NCBI GenBank assembly: GCA_963170165.1
Contig: CAUJGQ010000058.1
Location: 1-45,457 of the forward strand
DNA length: 45,457 nucleotides
Source of the DNA: Chloroflexota bacterium
GTDB lineage: Bacteria > Chloroflexota > Dehalococcoidia > CAUJGQ01
Direction of reading: 5' to 3'
The notes below the pieces were generated by a model. That model did no database searches and was not told the DNA's origin. It saw nothing but the letters and a program-made list of their open reading frames with translations. Positions 11,481 to 39,289 of the stretch are shown piece by piece. The position numbers and the translations under genes were made by a program. Numbering within the stretch: position 1 is the stretch's first letter; every line of letters begins with the position of its first letter.

Positions 11481-14465
11481 CTACCCCGCGACTACGCGGG
11501 CGATTGAACCATCACCACTCTTGGATACCTCGATCCGGGTGTCAAACAGGTCCTTCAGCTCGCTGATGTGCGTCACCACCAGCAGGCACTGGAAGTGGTC
11601 CTGAATGGCGGTGATCGCCTCAATGAGCCGTTCCCGGCCGGCGGCATCCTGGGTGCCGAACCCCTCATCAATCACCAGCGTGGCCAGCGGCGCACCGGCC
11701 CGGCGGGCCAGCAGCTTGGACAGGGCGATGCGCAACGCCAGATCGATGCGGAAGGCCTCGCCACCACTGAACAGCTCGTACGGACGGGTTCCCCACTCAT
11801 CGGCGATGCGTACCTCCATCGTCTCGACGGTCTCGCCCTTCTGCGTCAGGCGCTGGGTGTCGAGCGTCAGGTGCATGCGGTTGTTGGTCATGCGCGATAG
11901 CAGCTCGTTAGCTGCCTCCTCAATCTCCGGCAACACCGTCTCGATCAGCAGTCCCTGCACGCCGTGTTTGCCAAAGGCCTGCACCAGCTCGTCGTAGATG
12001 CCCGCCTGCCGCTGCTCTTCGACCAGTTGCCGCCCATGCTCCCGTCGCCGCTGCTGCAGCTCGGTCAGCCGCTGCACCTCCGCCTTGACCTTGCCCAACT
12101 CTTGCTGGAGCTGGTGCAGCCGCTCCCGCAGGTCCGCCACCCGCGCCCGGCAGTCCGGCAGCGCCGCATCGGTCTCGGGCAGCGATGCCAGCTCCTGCCC
12201 GGCCCGCTGCGCGCGCTGCTCGGCCTCGGCCCGCTCGGCTGCGGCGCGCGCCGCGTTCGCCTGGTGGGAGGACAGCGCGGCGCGGGCCGGGTCGATACCA
12301 CCCCGGGCCTGCTGGAGCCTGCGGTGCGCATCCTCGTGCGGCGCCAGCTCGGCCACGCGAGCCGCCAGCGCCGCCAGGGGCAGTGCCGACGCCGCCGCCT
12401 GGAACGCGCCTGCCCGCTGCCTGGCCTGCTGCAGGCGCTCCTCCACATCGTGCCGCTGTTCACCCAGGCCGGCCAGCAGGCGCGCGGCGGCGGCCTGGCG
12501 CGCTTCGGCCTGCGCGAGCGCCTCGTATGCCGGCTGGGCGCCGGCCAGCTGCTCTACCTGGGCCAGCGCCTCCCGGTACGCCTGCGGGTCATGCGGCAGG
12601 CCGGCCCGCTCCTGCGTCAGCCGCGCCATTTCGGCCCGCTCCGCGGGACAGAATGCCGGGCCGGCCAGCGCCGCCGCCACCGCCACCCGTTCCGGGTCGA
12701 GCGCCGCCAGCCGTGTGGCTGCCTGGCGGGCCTCGCGCAGCTCGGCTACCACCTGGCCGAGCACCTGCCGCCGCTCGCCCGTGCGCCGTTCTAGCTCGGC
12801 GGTCTGCCGCCGCACCCGCTCGGCCGCCGTCTGCGCTTGCGCCTCCAGCTCCGGCAGCCGGGCACGGTTGGCGCGGTGCCGCCCGGCCAGCCCGCTGCCC
12901 TGCGCGTCGTAGTCTGCCACCACGCGCCGGATGCCATCGCCGTCTAGCCTTGTGCGGCACAACGGGCAATCGCCTGTGCCGGCCTCCTCGAGCTTAAGCA
13001 GCTCATCTCGCCGTGCGGCCAGCAGCTTCATCTCATCGAGCAGGCGCTGATTCTCGGCTCGGAGCGCTCCTTGCTCTTCCCGCCGTTCCGCCTCCTCCTG
13101 CTGTGCATCGTGGATGCTGCGGCGGAGGGCGAGCACGCTGGCATCATCGCCTTGCAGCGCCGCATGCTGCGCTTCGAGCGCGGGCACCCGCTCTGCGCGG
13201 GCAGCAATCTCGCCGCGCTCCCGCTCCAGCGCCTCCTGACGCTGCTGCAGGCGGGCCTGTTCGCGGTCGATGGCGGCCGCCAACCGGCTCTGCTGCTGCT
13301 CCAGCGCCGCCACACGCTGGGCGAGCGGCGCCTGCTCGTTCAGCACCCGGCGGGCGTCCTCCAGCAAAGCATACTGGGCACGGATGCGGCCGGCCTCTGC
13401 CAGCTGCCGAAGGTGGCCGTCGTGCTCGCGCTCCACCTCCGCAAGCCGCCGCAGGAGGGTGGTACGCTCATCCGCCAGCCGGGCCGCCTCCTGGCGTGCT
13501 GCCTCAGACTGAGAGGTGAGCCGGCGGTGCTCGGTGTGCTGCTCCTGTTCCTGCGCGCGGGCGGCGGACAGTTCGGCGTACCCGGACTCGACGGCCTCTG
13601 CCCGCGCGAGGATGGCTTCAAACTTGGCGAGGGCGGGCGTCTGGGCGTCGATGCCTGCCTGCGCCTCTGCCAGGCGGTTCGCCGCGGCGATGGCGGCCCG
13701 CCTGGCCTCTGCCAGCAGCTCGCCCAGCCGGTGCCGCTCCTGTGCTGCGGACTGCAGCCGCTCCAGCTCATGCTGGGCGCCGGTGTACTGCTCGTTGAGC
13801 GCATCGACGCCATCCTGAAGCTGGATCAGTTCGCCGGGGCGGTCCTCCAGGGCGCTGATCTCCCGCTCAGCGGTGGCGATGGCGTCCGAGGTGCGGGTGA
13901 CGCGCTGGTTCGCCTCGCGCAGGAGCGCCCGCGCCCGTGCCTCCCAGCCGTCGTAGCGGCCCAGGTCGAGAATCTCGGCGAGCACGGCCTTGCGCTGGCC
14001 TGCGGACTTGGAGGTAAACAGGCCGGACTTGCCCTGAACCAGAAAGGAGGAGTTGATGAAGGCGTCATACGACAGCTTGAGCAGCTGCTCGATGGCGCGC
14101 TCGGTCTCCGCTATCGTACTGCCGGTCAACGCCCGCCAGCCCGTGCTGTCCTGCACCTGCAGCTCGAGTCCGGGGGTGCCGCTGCGCGCGCCGGTCCGCC
14201 GCCACTTGCGCAAGACGCGGTAGCGCGCCTCGCCGGCGTAGAACTCGAACTCGACCTCCATATCGGTCGCGCCCAGGGAGACGAGGTCGGCGCCGTGGCT
14301 GCTGCGGGCCTTGCCCCACAGCGCCCAGGTGATGGCATCCAGCAGCGCGGACTTGCCGTAGCCGTTGTCGCCGGTGAGACAGGCGACATGCACGCCTTCG
14401 AGGTCCAGCGGCGGGCAGTCACGGTAGCAGAGGAAGTTGCGCAGCGCGAGCTTGGCAGGTACCAC
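11481..14465 (-). CDS. sbcC: Exonuclease SbcCD subunit SbcC (Rad50-like ATPase)
   Basis: ATPase subunit of the SbcCD nuclease, which opens hairpins and processes blocked DNA ends. Domains in the 994-aa product: N-terminal ABC half with Walker A GDNGYGKS (32-39), a long coiled coil (about 185-890), the zinc hook CPLC at 500-503 in its centre, then the C-terminal half with signature LFSGGEAFRIDLA from 898 and Walker B LVIDEGFG near 933. The start is GTG at 14465 with GGAG 7 nt upstream. A TAGAAT -10 and palindromes lie just before it, so it probably has its own promoter as well as any read-through from sbcD. Confidence 0.96.
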   Translation of the reverse strand: MVPAKLALRNFLCYRDCPPLDLEGVHVACLTGDNGYGKSALLDAITWALWGKARSSHGADLVSLGATDMEVEFEFYAGEARYRVLRKWRRTGARSGTPGLELQVQDSTGWRALTGSTIAETERAIEQLLKLSYDAFINSSFLVQGKSGLFTSKSAGQRKAVLAEILDLGRYDGWEARARALLREANQRVTRTSDAIATAEREISALEDRPGELIQLQDGVDALNEQYTGAQHELERLQSAAQERHRLGELLAEARRAAIAAANRLAEAQAGIDAQTPALAKFEAILARAEAVESGYAELSAARAQEQEQHTEHRRLTSQSEAARQEAARLADERTTLLRRLAEVEREHDGHLRQLAEAGRIRAQYALLEDARRVLNEQAPLAQRVAALEQQQSRLAAAIDREQARLQQRQEALERERGEIAARAERVPALEAQHAALQGDDASVLALRRSIHDAQQEEAERREEQGALRAENQRLLDEMKLLAARRDELLKLEEAGTGDCPLCRTRLDGDGIRRVVADYDAQGSGLAGRHRANRARLPELEAQAQTAAERVRRQTAELERRTGERRQVLGQVVAELREARQAATRLAALDPERVAVAAALAGPAFCPAERAEMARLTQERAGLPHDPQAYREALAQVEQLAGAQPAYEALAQAEARQAAAARLLAGLGEQRHDVEERLQQARQRAGAFQAAASALPLAALAARVAELAPHEDAHRRLQQARGGIDPARAALSSHQANAARAAAERAEAEQRAQRAGQELASLPETDAALPDCRARVADLRERLHQLQQELGKVKAEVQRLTELQQRRREHGRQLVEEQRQAGIYDELVQAFGKHGVQGLLIETVLPEIEEAANELLSRMTNNRMHLTLDTQRLTQKGETVETMEVRIADEWGTRPYELFSGGEAFRIDLALRIALSKLLARRAGAPLATLVIDEGFGTQDAAGRERLIEAITAIQDHFQCLLVVTHISELKDLFDTRIEVSKSGDGSIARVVAG

Positions 14466-14479
14466 ACGGTCGCTCCGGT

Positions 14480-14501
14480 GAACGTTCGTACAAACATTCT
14501 A
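14480..14501 (-). promoter_or_regulatory. sbcC promoter -10 with adjoining palindromes
   Basis: On the minus strand TAGAAT (14501-14496, five of six matches to TATAAT) is followed directly by two overlapping palindromes: GTTTGTACGAAC (14495-14484, one mismatched pair) and perfect GAACGTTC (14487-14480). The sbcC GTG lies 15 nt farther. This placement over the transcription start is typical of repressor operators. The half-site GAAC/GTTC is shared with the LexA-type box before radA, but the spacing differs. Confidence 0.45.
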
Positions 14502-14514
14502 GCCGGAGCGCCGC

Positions 14515-14781
14515 TCAGTCCGCGAGCAGGGCCGGGGGGCGGGCTGCCGTGGGGAGCGCAGCCGCCGGCCGCCGGATGCCCGCGGGCGGCTCCAGCCGGT
14601 TGGCTGCCGCGCCGGAGCGCAGCGCGTGATGCCAATCGTACACCGATGGCAGATCGCTAATCGGTAGCAGCGCGGTGTAGCCCTCCTGCTGGAGCGTGCC
14701 AGCGAAGTCATCGCGCAGCCGCGCCGCGAAGGCCGGATCGGTGATCAGCCGCAGCCAGATGTGAGGCAACACAGCAGCCAT
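14515..14781 (-). CDS. Small leader-peptide-like protein between sbcD and sbcC
   Basis: An 88-aa ORF starting at ATG 14781, with GGAGG 10 nt upstream; a GTG at 14805 would add eight residues. The N-terminal half contains LITDPAFAARLRDDFAGTL, which resembles the TDPxFRxxL motif of the NHLP/nitrile-hydratase-alpha-like leader-peptide clan (Franean1_4349/Os1348 type proteins). Then comes an aromatic segment (SVYDWHHAL) and a Pro/Ala-rich tail ending ALLAD. The tail has no cysteine and no RiPP-modifying enzyme is nearby, so a peptide natural product is doubtful. It ends 49 nt before the sbcC GTG. The 121-nt gap to sbcD holds an imperfect promoter (TTGTGG-18-TAGCAT) and a 7-bp stem (14838-14872). 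The gene is likely real; its function is unknown. Confidence 0.55.
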   Translation of the reverse strand: MAAVLPHIWLRLITDPAFAARLRDDFAGTLQQEGYTALLPISDLPSVYDWHHALRSGAAANRLEPPAGIRRPAAALPTAARPPALLAD

Positions 14782-14902
14782 GGGAGCGCGCCCTCCGCGG
14801 TCCACCCCACCACCGGATGCGCGTTCCCCATGCTACGCACCGGCCAGCCTCAGCCACAACGGACCGCCGGTGACAGTCTGGTGAAGGGCGCCAGGGCGTC
14901 GA

Positions 14903-16150
14903 TCAGCCGGCGTCCGCCGCGCCCTCGATGATGTCGCGGGCAACGCGCAGCAGCTCCGCCTTACGGTCTGGAGGGGTTTGCTTGTGGTCAAAGTACAGCG
15001 CCAGCGCCTCGGCCGGGGTCAGCTCCTCCGCCCGGCGATCCGTACCCAGGCGCGCACGTGCGCCCCGCTCGATGCTCTTGGTGATGGTGGCGACGGTGTG
15101 GGCGCCGGCTAGCGCCTGGCGGATGGCGCGCTCATCGAGGCCGGCCGCCTGCGCCGGTGTAAGGGTGAGCAGCACGCGGACGATTGCCCCGTCCACGGGC
15201 GCCCGCGCGATGCGGGCCAGCACCTCGGGCATCGGGTCTTCTGCGCGCGGGCGCACCTCCACCGTCACGAAGCGCCGGGCCGTCACGGGGCGGAAGCGCA
15301 CGCCGTCCATGGTCACCCGCTCGCCGCGTGGTTTCGCGAGGTCTAGATCGAGGAGCACGAAGCCTTTGTCGTCGTCTTCCTCACCAAAGTCGACGCGCTG
15401 GGTGCTGCCCGCGTACAGCACCGGCGGTCGCTCGTTCAGCACCTGAAAGGCGTGATGATGCCCCAGGGCAACGTAATCGAAGGCGTCTAGACGCAGGTCG
15501 CTGCGGTTGAGCTTGGGGAACCGGCCGATGGTCATCCATTGCTCGGAGCGCGTCTTGACGATGCTGTCGCTCATGGCGATGTGCGCGGTGAGCACGGCGG
15601 GCAGCGCCGGGTCGAGCTGGTCCGCCACGGCGCTGATGTGATCGGCGATGCCGGCAGCCAGCAGCTTATCGATCTCGTCCAGGGTCATGTTCTTGTACTC
15701 GTCGCGGCGCAGCCACTGCGATACGGACGGCCACGGTACGCCCACGACCTGCAACGGACCGGCGCGCGTCTGCATCACCGTCAGCCCCAGCCGCGCGCCG
15801 ACATGCACCTGGTGGACGCCCAGCGTGGTGAAGATCTCCAGCGCATTGGCGCGCGTGATCATGTTGGGCAGGTCGTGGTTGCCGACGAGCAGGTACACCG
15901 GGATGCCGGCCTGCACCAGCCGCATGACGCGCGTGGCGAACTCACGCTGGTGTGTCTGCTCGGGGTTGCGCGACTTGTAGGCGTCACCGGCAAAGATGAC
16001 GGCGTCTACGCCTTCGCTGATGGCCGTCTCCACCAGCTCATCGAAGGCGGCAAGGAAGTCCAGCAGCCGGGTGGATAGGCCGGTCTGCGGGTCGGGCCGG
16101 CCGTAGTTCTCCACGCCGATATGCAGGTCGGCGAAATGTAACAGGCGCAC
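14903..16150 (-). CDS. sbcD: Exonuclease SbcCD subunit SbcD (Mre11-like nuclease)
   Basis: Metallophosphoesterase nuclease subunit paired with SbcC. The phosphoesterase motifs are in order: HFADLHIG (residues 5-12), FAGDAY near 53-58, VGNHDLP near 94-100, then histidines in VLTAHIAMSD and ALGHHHAF. The 415-aa length is normal, with a C-terminal capping/SbcC-binding region. The GTG at 16150 has a strong GGAGGAG 5 nt upstream; a GGGGG/CCCCC hairpin (16163-16177) lies just before it. Unlike the usual adjacent sbcD-sbcC pair, an 88-aa ORF separates the two here. Confidence 0.96.
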   Translation of the reverse strand: MRLLHFADLHIGVENYGRPDPQTGLSTRLLDFLAAFDELVETAISEGVDAVIFAGDAYKSRNPEQTHQREFATRVMRLVQAGIPVYLLVGNHDLPNMITRANALEIFTTLGVHQVHVGARLGLTVMQTRAGPLQVVGVPWPSVSQWLRRDEYKNMTLDEIDKLLAAGIADHISAVADQLDPALPAVLTAHIAMSDSIVKTRSEQWMTIGRFPKLNRSDLRLDAFDYVALGHHHAFQVLNERPPVLYAGSTQRVDFGEEDDDKGFVLLDLDLAKPRGERVTMDGVRFRPVTARRFVTVEVRPRAEDPMPEVLARIARAPVDGAIVRVLLTLTPAQAAGLDERAIRQALAGAHTVATITKSIERGARARLGTDRRAEELTPAEALALYFDHKQTPPDRKAELLRVARDIIEGAADAG

Positions 16151-27248: not shown

Positions 27249-30019
<2,771 letters not shown>

Positions 30020-37795: not shown

Positions 37796-39289
37796 ATGTC
37801 CCGTCGATGGCTGCTCACGGTTGTGCTCGCTGCAGTTCTGTCGGTCTCGTGTGGCGGTGACAAGAAGTCCAGCGGTGGCGGAAGTCCTGGACCGGCAGAC
37901 CAGGGCTCCACTATCGGCACGCCTGCCCCGGCGGCCACGGCGCCGCCAACCCCCGCCGCCGCTGCCACGCCAAACGAAGCAACCCTCCGCGACCTCCAGG
38001 CGCAGGTTGATGCCGGCCGGCTCGACCAGCAGGTGTTCGACAACATGAAGAACACCGGCGCCTCCGATACCCTCGTGGTGCTGGACGAAGCGAAGGCGCT
38101 GGATACGCTGCGCAAAGAGGCCGCCGCGCGTGGCATCCAGCTCTCCGAGGAGCGAATCGTCGAGCTGAAGCCCCAGATCTACGCCGAGATCAAGAAGCAG
38201 GTTGCGGGCGGCATCGGTGGCGGCGGCGCCGTCGTGCAGGACTTCGACAGCCTTGGCGTCGTGCAAGTGCGCTTCACCAGCGGCGCCACCCTGCTTACCG
38301 TCCTCCGCCGGTCCGAGGTCGAGGGCGTCCGCGACGTCCAAACCTACAAGCGCCAGACCAAGGAAAGCCTGCCGCTGATTAACCAGCCCAAGGCCACCAA
38401 GGACGGCTACACCGGCGCCGGCACCACCGTTGCCGTTCTGGATACCGGCGTGGATTACCGCCACAGCGCCTTCGGCAGCTGTCAGCGCCCTGGCCTGCCG
38501 GCGAACAAGTGCCGCGTCACCTTCGCCGCCGACGTGCTCCAGAATGACAGCGTGCTCGATGACGACGGCCACGGCACCAACGTCTCGGGGATCGTCGCCG
38601 GCGTGGCTCCGCAGGCGCGGCTGGCCGTGCTGGATGTCTTCCAGGGTGAGCAGGCCAGCGACCGCGCGGTGTTGGTGGCGCTGGATTGGGTGCTGAAGAA
38701 CAAAGCCACGTACAACATCGTCGCTGTCAACCTCTCCCTCGGATCGTCGCAGTTCTACCACACGGCGGCTTGCAGCCGGTCTCCGTACGTCACCGTGTTT
38801 CGGGACCTGCGAGCGGCCGGTGTCCTACCGGTGGTAGCGGCCGGCAACGATGGCATCGTCAAGGGGAAGTTCCGCAACGGCCTCGGTGATCCGGCCTGTG
38901 CCTCCGGCGCGTTGAGCGTGGGCGCTGTGTACGATGCCGACACCGGCCGCCGCGTGTACGGCCCAGACTGCACCGACGAGAAGACGGTAGCCGATCAGAT
39001 TACCTGCTTCTCGCAGACCGGCCCCAACCTCGGCATCCTCGCGCCGGGTTCGCGCATCACGGCCGCCGGCGTTACCCAGGGCGGCACCTCGCAGGCCGCC
39101 CCCCACGTCGCCGGCGCCGTCGCCGCGCTCGCCTCCAAGTGCCCGCGCGCTACCCCGGAGCAAATCGAGAAGGCAATCACCACCAGTGGCCCAGAGATCA
39201 ATGACAAGCGCAACAATGTCACACGCCGGCGGCTGGACGTCTCGGCAGCCGCACAGTCTTTGAACGCCGCCGGCGCCTGCCGCCGCTGA
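37796..39289 (+). CDS. Subtilisin-family (S8) serine protease, predicted lipoprotein
   Basis: Exported protease of 497 aa. The signal peptide ends in a lipobox-like LSVSC with C19 as the lipidated residue, followed by a Gly/Ser/Pro/Ala-rich linker (20-60), an inhibitor-I9-like propeptide region (about 90-190) and the catalytic domain. The triad is D216 (AVLDTGVD), H259 (DGHGTNVSG) and S432 (GGTSQAAPHVAG), with oxyanion N351 (AAGND). At least six cysteines in the catalytic domain suggest disulfides, consistent with an extracellular location. The ATG has a GAAGGAAGG ribosome site. It sits between rodA and radA; substrate unknown. Actinobacterial-type mycosins are similar, but no type VII genes are present. 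Confidence 0.9.
   Translation: MSRRWLLTVVLAAVLSVSCGGDKKSSGGGSPGPADQGSTIGTPAPAATAPPTPAAAATPNEATLRDLQAQVDAGRLDQQVFDNMKNTGASDTLVVLDEAKALDTLRKEAAARGIQLSEERIVELKPQIYAEIKKQVAGGIGGGGAVVQDFDSLGVVQVRFTSGATLLTVLRRSEVEGVRDVQTYKRQTKESLPLINQPKATKDGYTGAGTTVAVLDTGVDYRHSAFGSCQRPGLPANKCRVTFAADVLQNDSVLDDDGHGTNVSGIVAGVAPQARLAVLDVFQGEQASDRAVLVALDWVLKNKATYNIVAVNLSLGSSQFYHTAACSRSPYVTVFRDLRAAGVLPVVAAGNDGIVKGKFRNGLGDPACASGALSVGAVYDADTGRRVYGPDCTDEKTVADQITCFSQTGPNLGILAPGSRITAAGVTQGGTSQAAPHVAGAVAALASKCPRATPEQIEKAITTSGPEINDKRNNVTRRRLDVSAAAQSLNAAGACRR

Follow-up and report, generated by a model that had tools for sequence, protein, structure and literature searches.

A candidate NHLP-clan-like small protein in the sbcD–sbcC spacer of a Dehalococcoidia genome

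The spacer between sbcD and sbcC in this member of the Dehalococcoidia contains an 88-codon open reading frame (ORF) that is probably a real gene and is apparently restricted to its own lineage, as far as that could be searched. The explanation that we prefer, at a probability of about 0.5, is that it encodes a stand-alone small protein resembling the NHLP clan, with a helical N-terminal half, that lies in a variable spacer and is neither a RiPP precursor nor tied to SbcCD. The N-terminal half would be a domain of helices with a remote relationship to the motif-1 helix that Os1348, NHLP and the alpha subunit of nitrile hydratase have, and the Ala/Pro-rich C-terminal tail is probably disordered. 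Such a product should be a small cytoplasmic protein, most likely one that self-associates or docks onto a partner via its helices, and would be one among several stand-alone Os1348-like proteins of the same genome. Docking is suggested because Os1348 forms a dimer in the crystal and because Os1348 domains are fused to enzymes in genomes of the same class.

The reading frame and its coding character

The ORF occupies positions 14515..14781 of the window (the whole 45,457-nucleotide stretch that was analysed) on the minus strand, stop codon included, and begins with an ATG at 14781; an alternative in-frame GTG at 14805 would extend the product to 96 residues. A GGAGG that is presumably the ribosome-binding site lies 10 nt 5' of the ATG (14792..14796, minus strand), which bears out the earlier note in placing an 88-residue ORF with a good ribosome site between sbcD and sbcC. 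The upstream neighbor (14903..16150, minus strand) is identified as sbcD by TIGR00619 at 147.9 bits, exceeding the cut-off of 77.65. The downstream neighbor (11481..14465, minus strand) carries the Pfam domain AAA_23 and has as its top NCBIfam match TIGR00618 (sbcc), though this match (E 2.4e-71, 241 bits) is below the cut-off of 478.5. Read along the minus strand, the order is sbcD, 121 bp, the 88-codon ORF, 49 bp and sbcC, so that the ORF is contained within a spacer of 437 bp (14466..14902, minus strand). The spacer is not repeated elsewhere in its own genome, where the best other match covers ∼30 bases at E 0.0016. The predicted product reads MAAVLPHIWLRLITDPAFAARLRDDFAGTLQQEGYTALLPISDLPSVYDWHHALRSGAAANR, followed by the Ala/Pro-rich tail; the motif TDPAFAARL is found in it and cysteine is absent, both in agreement with the earlier note, which had reported this motif and no cysteine-rich core.

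The length of the ORF is no evidence for coding, because, when the 437-bp spacer was shuffled 5000 times with its dinucleotides preserved, 16.7% of the shuffles contained a sense ORF of at least 88 codons starting with ATG. Its composition is more telling. Among 6000 shuffles of the spacer, 3959 contained one or more ORFs of at least 80 codons on either strand, and none of these 5883 ORFs reached the codon score of 0.201, while a single one reached the difference between GC3 and GC2 of 0.261. The same codon score was reached by 1 of 53 shadow ORFs from nine gene regions of the window, and it falls at the 6% level among 84 windows taken from real genes, so that the ORF is a weakly typical gene. 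The signal is concentrated in the first 62 codons (0.253), and the tail hardly contributes (0.076).

Resemblance to the Os1348 and NHLP families

The sole NCBIfam model to match the ORF is NF038399 (Os1348 family NHLP clan protein), which aligns residues 11-36 with profile positions 9-34 (E 4.4e-5, 23.5 bits). These residues comprise the motif-1 helix, are encoded by 14674..14751 on the minus strand, and score between 22.9 and 24.3 bits against a curated cut-off of 40, with 23.3 to 24.3 bits for the protein as a whole; at such a sub-cut-off score the protein is not, on its sequence, classed as a member of the Os1348 family. As a control, 78 shadow ORFs of 70-125 residues from the same window were compared with NCBIfam, and none had a match within an E limit of 0.05. 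A second profile was built from 13 Os1348-like sequences of the same class, three of them from the own genome and from G001, a second member of the family. Its alignment begins at residue 5, near the start methionine, and gives the ORF 10.0 bits, a score equalled by one of 20000 residue shuffles, although among 17915 frames of the loci the ORF reaches only E 0.85. Of 20000 shuffles, 58 equalled the score that the ORF has with a four-member profile of nitrile hydratase alpha subunits. When 17-mers in 154 kb were scored crudely for the published motif 1, that of the ORF came 13th (tied) of 234491. The motif-1 helix (D-x-x-F-x-x-x-L) is thus present near the N-terminus; the second helix of Os1348 members in the class, (Y)DLTxEExAAL, is missing by eye, and the profile alignments stop at residue 32-36.

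No Pfam family matched the ORF at E up to 10, Franean1_4349 (PF14407) included, nor did TIGR03793 or TIGR03795 at the same threshold, and PHROGs and PADLOC left it unmatched. A sequence search of the PDB yielded just three chains (E 0.49 to 1.5). The HMM comparison that had been proposed for this ORF therefore gave a divided answer: the Os1348 model matches below its cut-off and better than controls do, but TIGR03793 and Franean1_4349 go unreported. The claim of an NHLP-like protein survives in a reduced form, as a resemblance to the clan that looks faint but above chance and that extends over ∼26 residues, far below the cut-off.

This stretch of the profile does detect relatives within the clan. 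NF038399 matches 53 of the 393 genomes of the class at E up to 5e-4, with 25 above the cut-off, and the ORF is the weakest among the matches listed there. Of nine weak matches examined, four are nitrile hydratase alpha subunits, in frames of 214-233 residues with a CTLCSC site; the two that were checked score over the cut-off of TIGR01323 and align with NF038399 at positions 4-36 and 5-33, where the ORF matches too. These subunits are found through their own motif 1, so that the clan feature present in the ORF is at best the motif-1 helix. Of the 17 positions of this motif it shares 7 with the nitrile hydratase consensus, 5 with NHLP-Burk and 3 with NHLP. It differs from the alpha subunit (TIGR01323) in lacking the CTLCSC metal site, in having 88 rather than ∼220 residues, and in matching the four-member profile only marginally.

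Os1348 from Pseudomonas sp. Os17 is described as a six-helix protein, a homodimer by X-ray, whose mechanism is unclear (PMC7726476). Os1348 (NF038399) and the ORF product are alike in size (85 and 88 residues) and can be aligned over the 26 residues of the motif-1 stretch, but the cluster of Os1348 has an acetyltransferase, a peptidase and a SagB-like gene, and the neighborhood of the ORF has none of these (PMC7726476). The ORF also differs in its score, in its missing second helix and in having no known antibiotic role. The hallmarks of NHLP leader peptides include a motif 2, a Gly-Gly site and a core open to modification (PMC2887384); set against TIGR03793 and TIGR03795, the ORF has no motif 2, no Gly-Gly and no core rich in Cys, Ser or Thr.

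Single-sequence AlphaFold2 predicts three helices (5-13, 16-32 and 41-56) at a mean pLDDT of 71.2 and a pTM of 0.49, and in this model of modest confidence residues 5-56 are mostly helical, with the Ala/Pro-rich tail following. The structure prediction is nonetheless uninformative, because a control shadow ORF of equal length scores alike (mean pLDDT 71.5, pTM 0.35). Foldseek, run on the model with an E limit of 0.001, matched nothing (its best E was 6.5), and a second structure comparison with five chains gave none with Z of at least 2.

Relatives of the reading frame and of its junction

No convincing homologue of the ORF was found in 148 relatives, 400 genomes of the phylum and 393 of the class (overlapping sets), nor among viral contigs and plasmids. 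With the 88-residue query, 82 of the 148 relatives, the own genome counted, gave a match at E up to 1, and the non-self matches are weak. The best of these (E 2.0e-4) lies in a 438-residue frame of G029, possibly the C-terminus of a thiolase, with similar matches in frames of ∼400 residues in G056, and was judged to be a chance match within a larger enzyme; another, in G076 (E 3.7e-4), contains two stops. A query of 62 residues matched only G377 (E 0.0054, in a 1326-residue frame) and G563 (E 0.0046, in a 249-residue frame). When the ORF was compared by tblastn with 117 sequences, comprising 110 sbcD loci, the G001 junction and six larger stretches from the class, it returned itself and one match at chance level (E 0.30). 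The earlier note had proposed to look for the same ORF in related genomes; neither the G001 junction nor any of the other 109 sbcD loci, many of them short, yielded a copy. Absence of homologues and of conservation had been named in advance as evidence against the proposal; such absence is indeed seen as far as was searched, but the codon statistics still point to coding. Among the titles listed by searches of openly licensed papers, none deals with an sbcD–ORF–sbcC arrangement.

The N-terminus of sbcC was detected downstream of sbcD in 9 of the 110 sbcD loci, the own locus counted, which is a lower bound because many of these loci extend at most 1.5 kb past sbcD; the sbcC of G001 was missed in this count and detected afterwards. 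In the other eight loci the gap between the two genes is -4, -4, 6, 15, 81, 97, 763 and 1558 bp. Six class members thus have gaps of -4 to 97 bp, which leave no room for an 88-residue ORF. In G001, the sole further family member among the 148 relatives, sbcD and sbcC keep their order and strand. A gene that by eye resembles glyS lies upstream of them, and ∼5.7 kb separates the two (L181:1842-7500, G001 contig 74). The opened junction holds a 427-residue frame with no Pfam match, a 1005-residue LuxR-type AAA regulator and a 241-residue protein whose match to sigma-70 region 2 is weak and below the cut-off. Its DNA has no clear relation to the spacer studied here (best E 0.025, over 19 bases), and no relation was found between it and the ORF. 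The statement that sbcD and sbcC are normally adjacent holds here only in part. The junction is not constant among members of the family, and sbcDC has no conserved companion in this ORF, since the junctions of relatives lack it; with a spacer this variable, the neighborhood says little about the function of the ORF.

Alternative explanations and Os1348-like domains elsewhere

It might be supposed that the ORF is spurious or decaying, a chance frame in a GC-rich spacer or the remnant of a gene, and that its likeness to the motif is coincidental. Such an origin would accord with the lack of a homologue in any set searched, with a length expected in 16.7% of shuffles, with a low-complexity tail whose codon score is 0.076 against 0.253, with the different junction in G001, and with an AlphaFold2 model no better than its control. 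It is unlikely, given a codon score unreached in 5883 shuffle ORFs, a GGAGG and a start codon that fit the start of the domain, and a match to the clan where 0 of 78 controls had any. A spacer that is mainly regulatory, for example one with a separate promoter for sbcC and a perhaps incidental ORF, is quite unlikely, and would be compatible with the other explanations. By eye, a TAGAAT 13 nt past the stop of the ORF (14496..14501, minus strand) could be the -10 element of such a promoter, and similar sequences precede sbcC in G036 (TACGAT) and G001 (TACAAT). A GAAC-N4-GTTC box with one mismatch also lies before sbcC at 14480-14491, and recA of the same genome has an exact GAACACTTGTTC upstream (L197:1370-1381), which we take to be an SOS box of the Gram-positive type. 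However, the window contains 13 such boxes with at most one mismatch where 10.3 are expected, which is not above chance. A simple scan of the spacer (14466..14902) found neither a sigma-70-like promoter nor a terminator, Rfam gave zero matches there at E up to 1, and regulation would leave the codon signature of the ORF unexplained. Exact GAAC-N4-GTTC boxes occur in the window at 29213 and 39329. A palindrome before sbcC (GTTYGTACRAAC) was also considered as an operator and has two sites in the genome; this was dropped because the second falls inside a 349-residue frame, oxidoreductase-like by eye.

The placement of the ORF between sbcD and sbcC, on their strand and with spacings (121 and 49 bp) that permit co-transcription, could indicate an accessory or regulatory subunit of SbcCD that binds SbcC or SbcD, and a regulator or partner of this complex had been suggested before. 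We consider this distinctly improbable, as tblastn against the other 109 sbcD loci, of which many are short, detected no copy of the ORF, the junction of G001 is occupied by different genes, and the gaps of at most 97 bp in six class members are too small for it. We infer that the ORF has no link to SbcCD: this Rad50-Mre11-like nuclease is its genomic neighbor only, and no conserved association was found. Very improbable is a broader proposal, in which the NHLP-clan fold was recruited in the Dehalococcoidia, away from RiPP biosynthesis, as a general docking module, fused to the C-terminus of formate-dehydrogenase-type enzymes and of a formate/nitrite transporter-like protein, placed before a phosphatase domain or free, with the ORF product tethering SbcCD or another machine. 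The least probable alternative, and an extremely doubtful one, is a RiPP precursor on which an enzyme encoded elsewhere acts in trans. The likeness to the leader of the NHLP clan would suit it, and precursors can be encoded far from their modifying genes (PMC2887384). Yet the ORF has no Gly-Gly, no Cys and no Ser/Thr-rich core, a genome-wide search, confined to YcaO among the RiPP enzymes, found none, and a Pfam scan of 20 genes of the window, a set that does not include some identified by eye (uvrA, glyS and ftsH among them), revealed no RiPP-modifying enzyme. A precursor role is accordingly not supported. The scanned genes include a subtilase (37796-39289), 23 kb from the ORF.

The stand-alone NHLP-clan-like protein that we prefer has its own points against it, namely the lack of a homologue, the sub-cut-off score, the modest results with the class profile (E 0.85), the nitrile hydratase profile and the crude motif-1 score, the missing LTxEE helix, the failure of AlphaFold2 to separate the ORF from its control and the empty Foldseek result. 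The earlier note had offered a stand-alone protein with a borrowed fold as one of its options, and this is the better of them; the own genome has other stand-alone copies, although all are below the cut-off of 40. Small stand-alone proteins match NF038399 on contig 69 (35.8 bits, E 6.5e-9), on contig 21 (31.0 bits, E 1.9e-7) and, weakly, on contig 47 (15 bits, E 0.019), and no RiPP enzyme was recognized by eye in the translations of the frames around them. Together with the lack of YcaO in the genome, these copies favor a use of the domain other than in RiPP biosynthesis. If real, the ORF would be a further sign that domains of the NHLP clan need not be RiPP leaders, which is relevant to the labelling of such proteins as natural-product precursors in genome mining. 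A phosphatase of the DSP/PTP type on contig 138 of the same genome (L177:5628-6593, minus strand) has an Os1348-like stretch (24.7 bits) ahead of its catalytic domain.

The fusions of Os1348 domains in genomes of the same class are more striking than the ORF itself. An over-cut-off NF038399 domain lies at the C-terminus of molybdopterin oxidoreductases in all six long frames tested, and a formate/nitrite transporter-like protein has a C-terminal Os1348 domain (1 of 1 tested); these counts leave out three further long frames (G537, G557 and G566). The fusion frames are L185:4910-7909 (minus strand), L186:5337-6677 (plus strand), L035, L037, L039, L040 and L042. The oxidoreductase fusion in L185 is complete and has a formate-dehydrogenase/NuoG-like architecture, the other five being cut by the end of the locus. 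Attachment to enzymes and to a transporter-like protein suggests a docking role, and the C-terminal Os1348 domains look like a common docking tag outside RiPP biosynthesis. Through these fused domains, what the fold does beyond RiPP pathways could be tested directly. A small stand-alone Os1348 copy stands first in a gene series of L185 and L191 that includes NuoE- and NuoF-like genes, and the copies in L185, L186, L189, L191 and L192 have in common a tail like TWLWCRLSQEKW.
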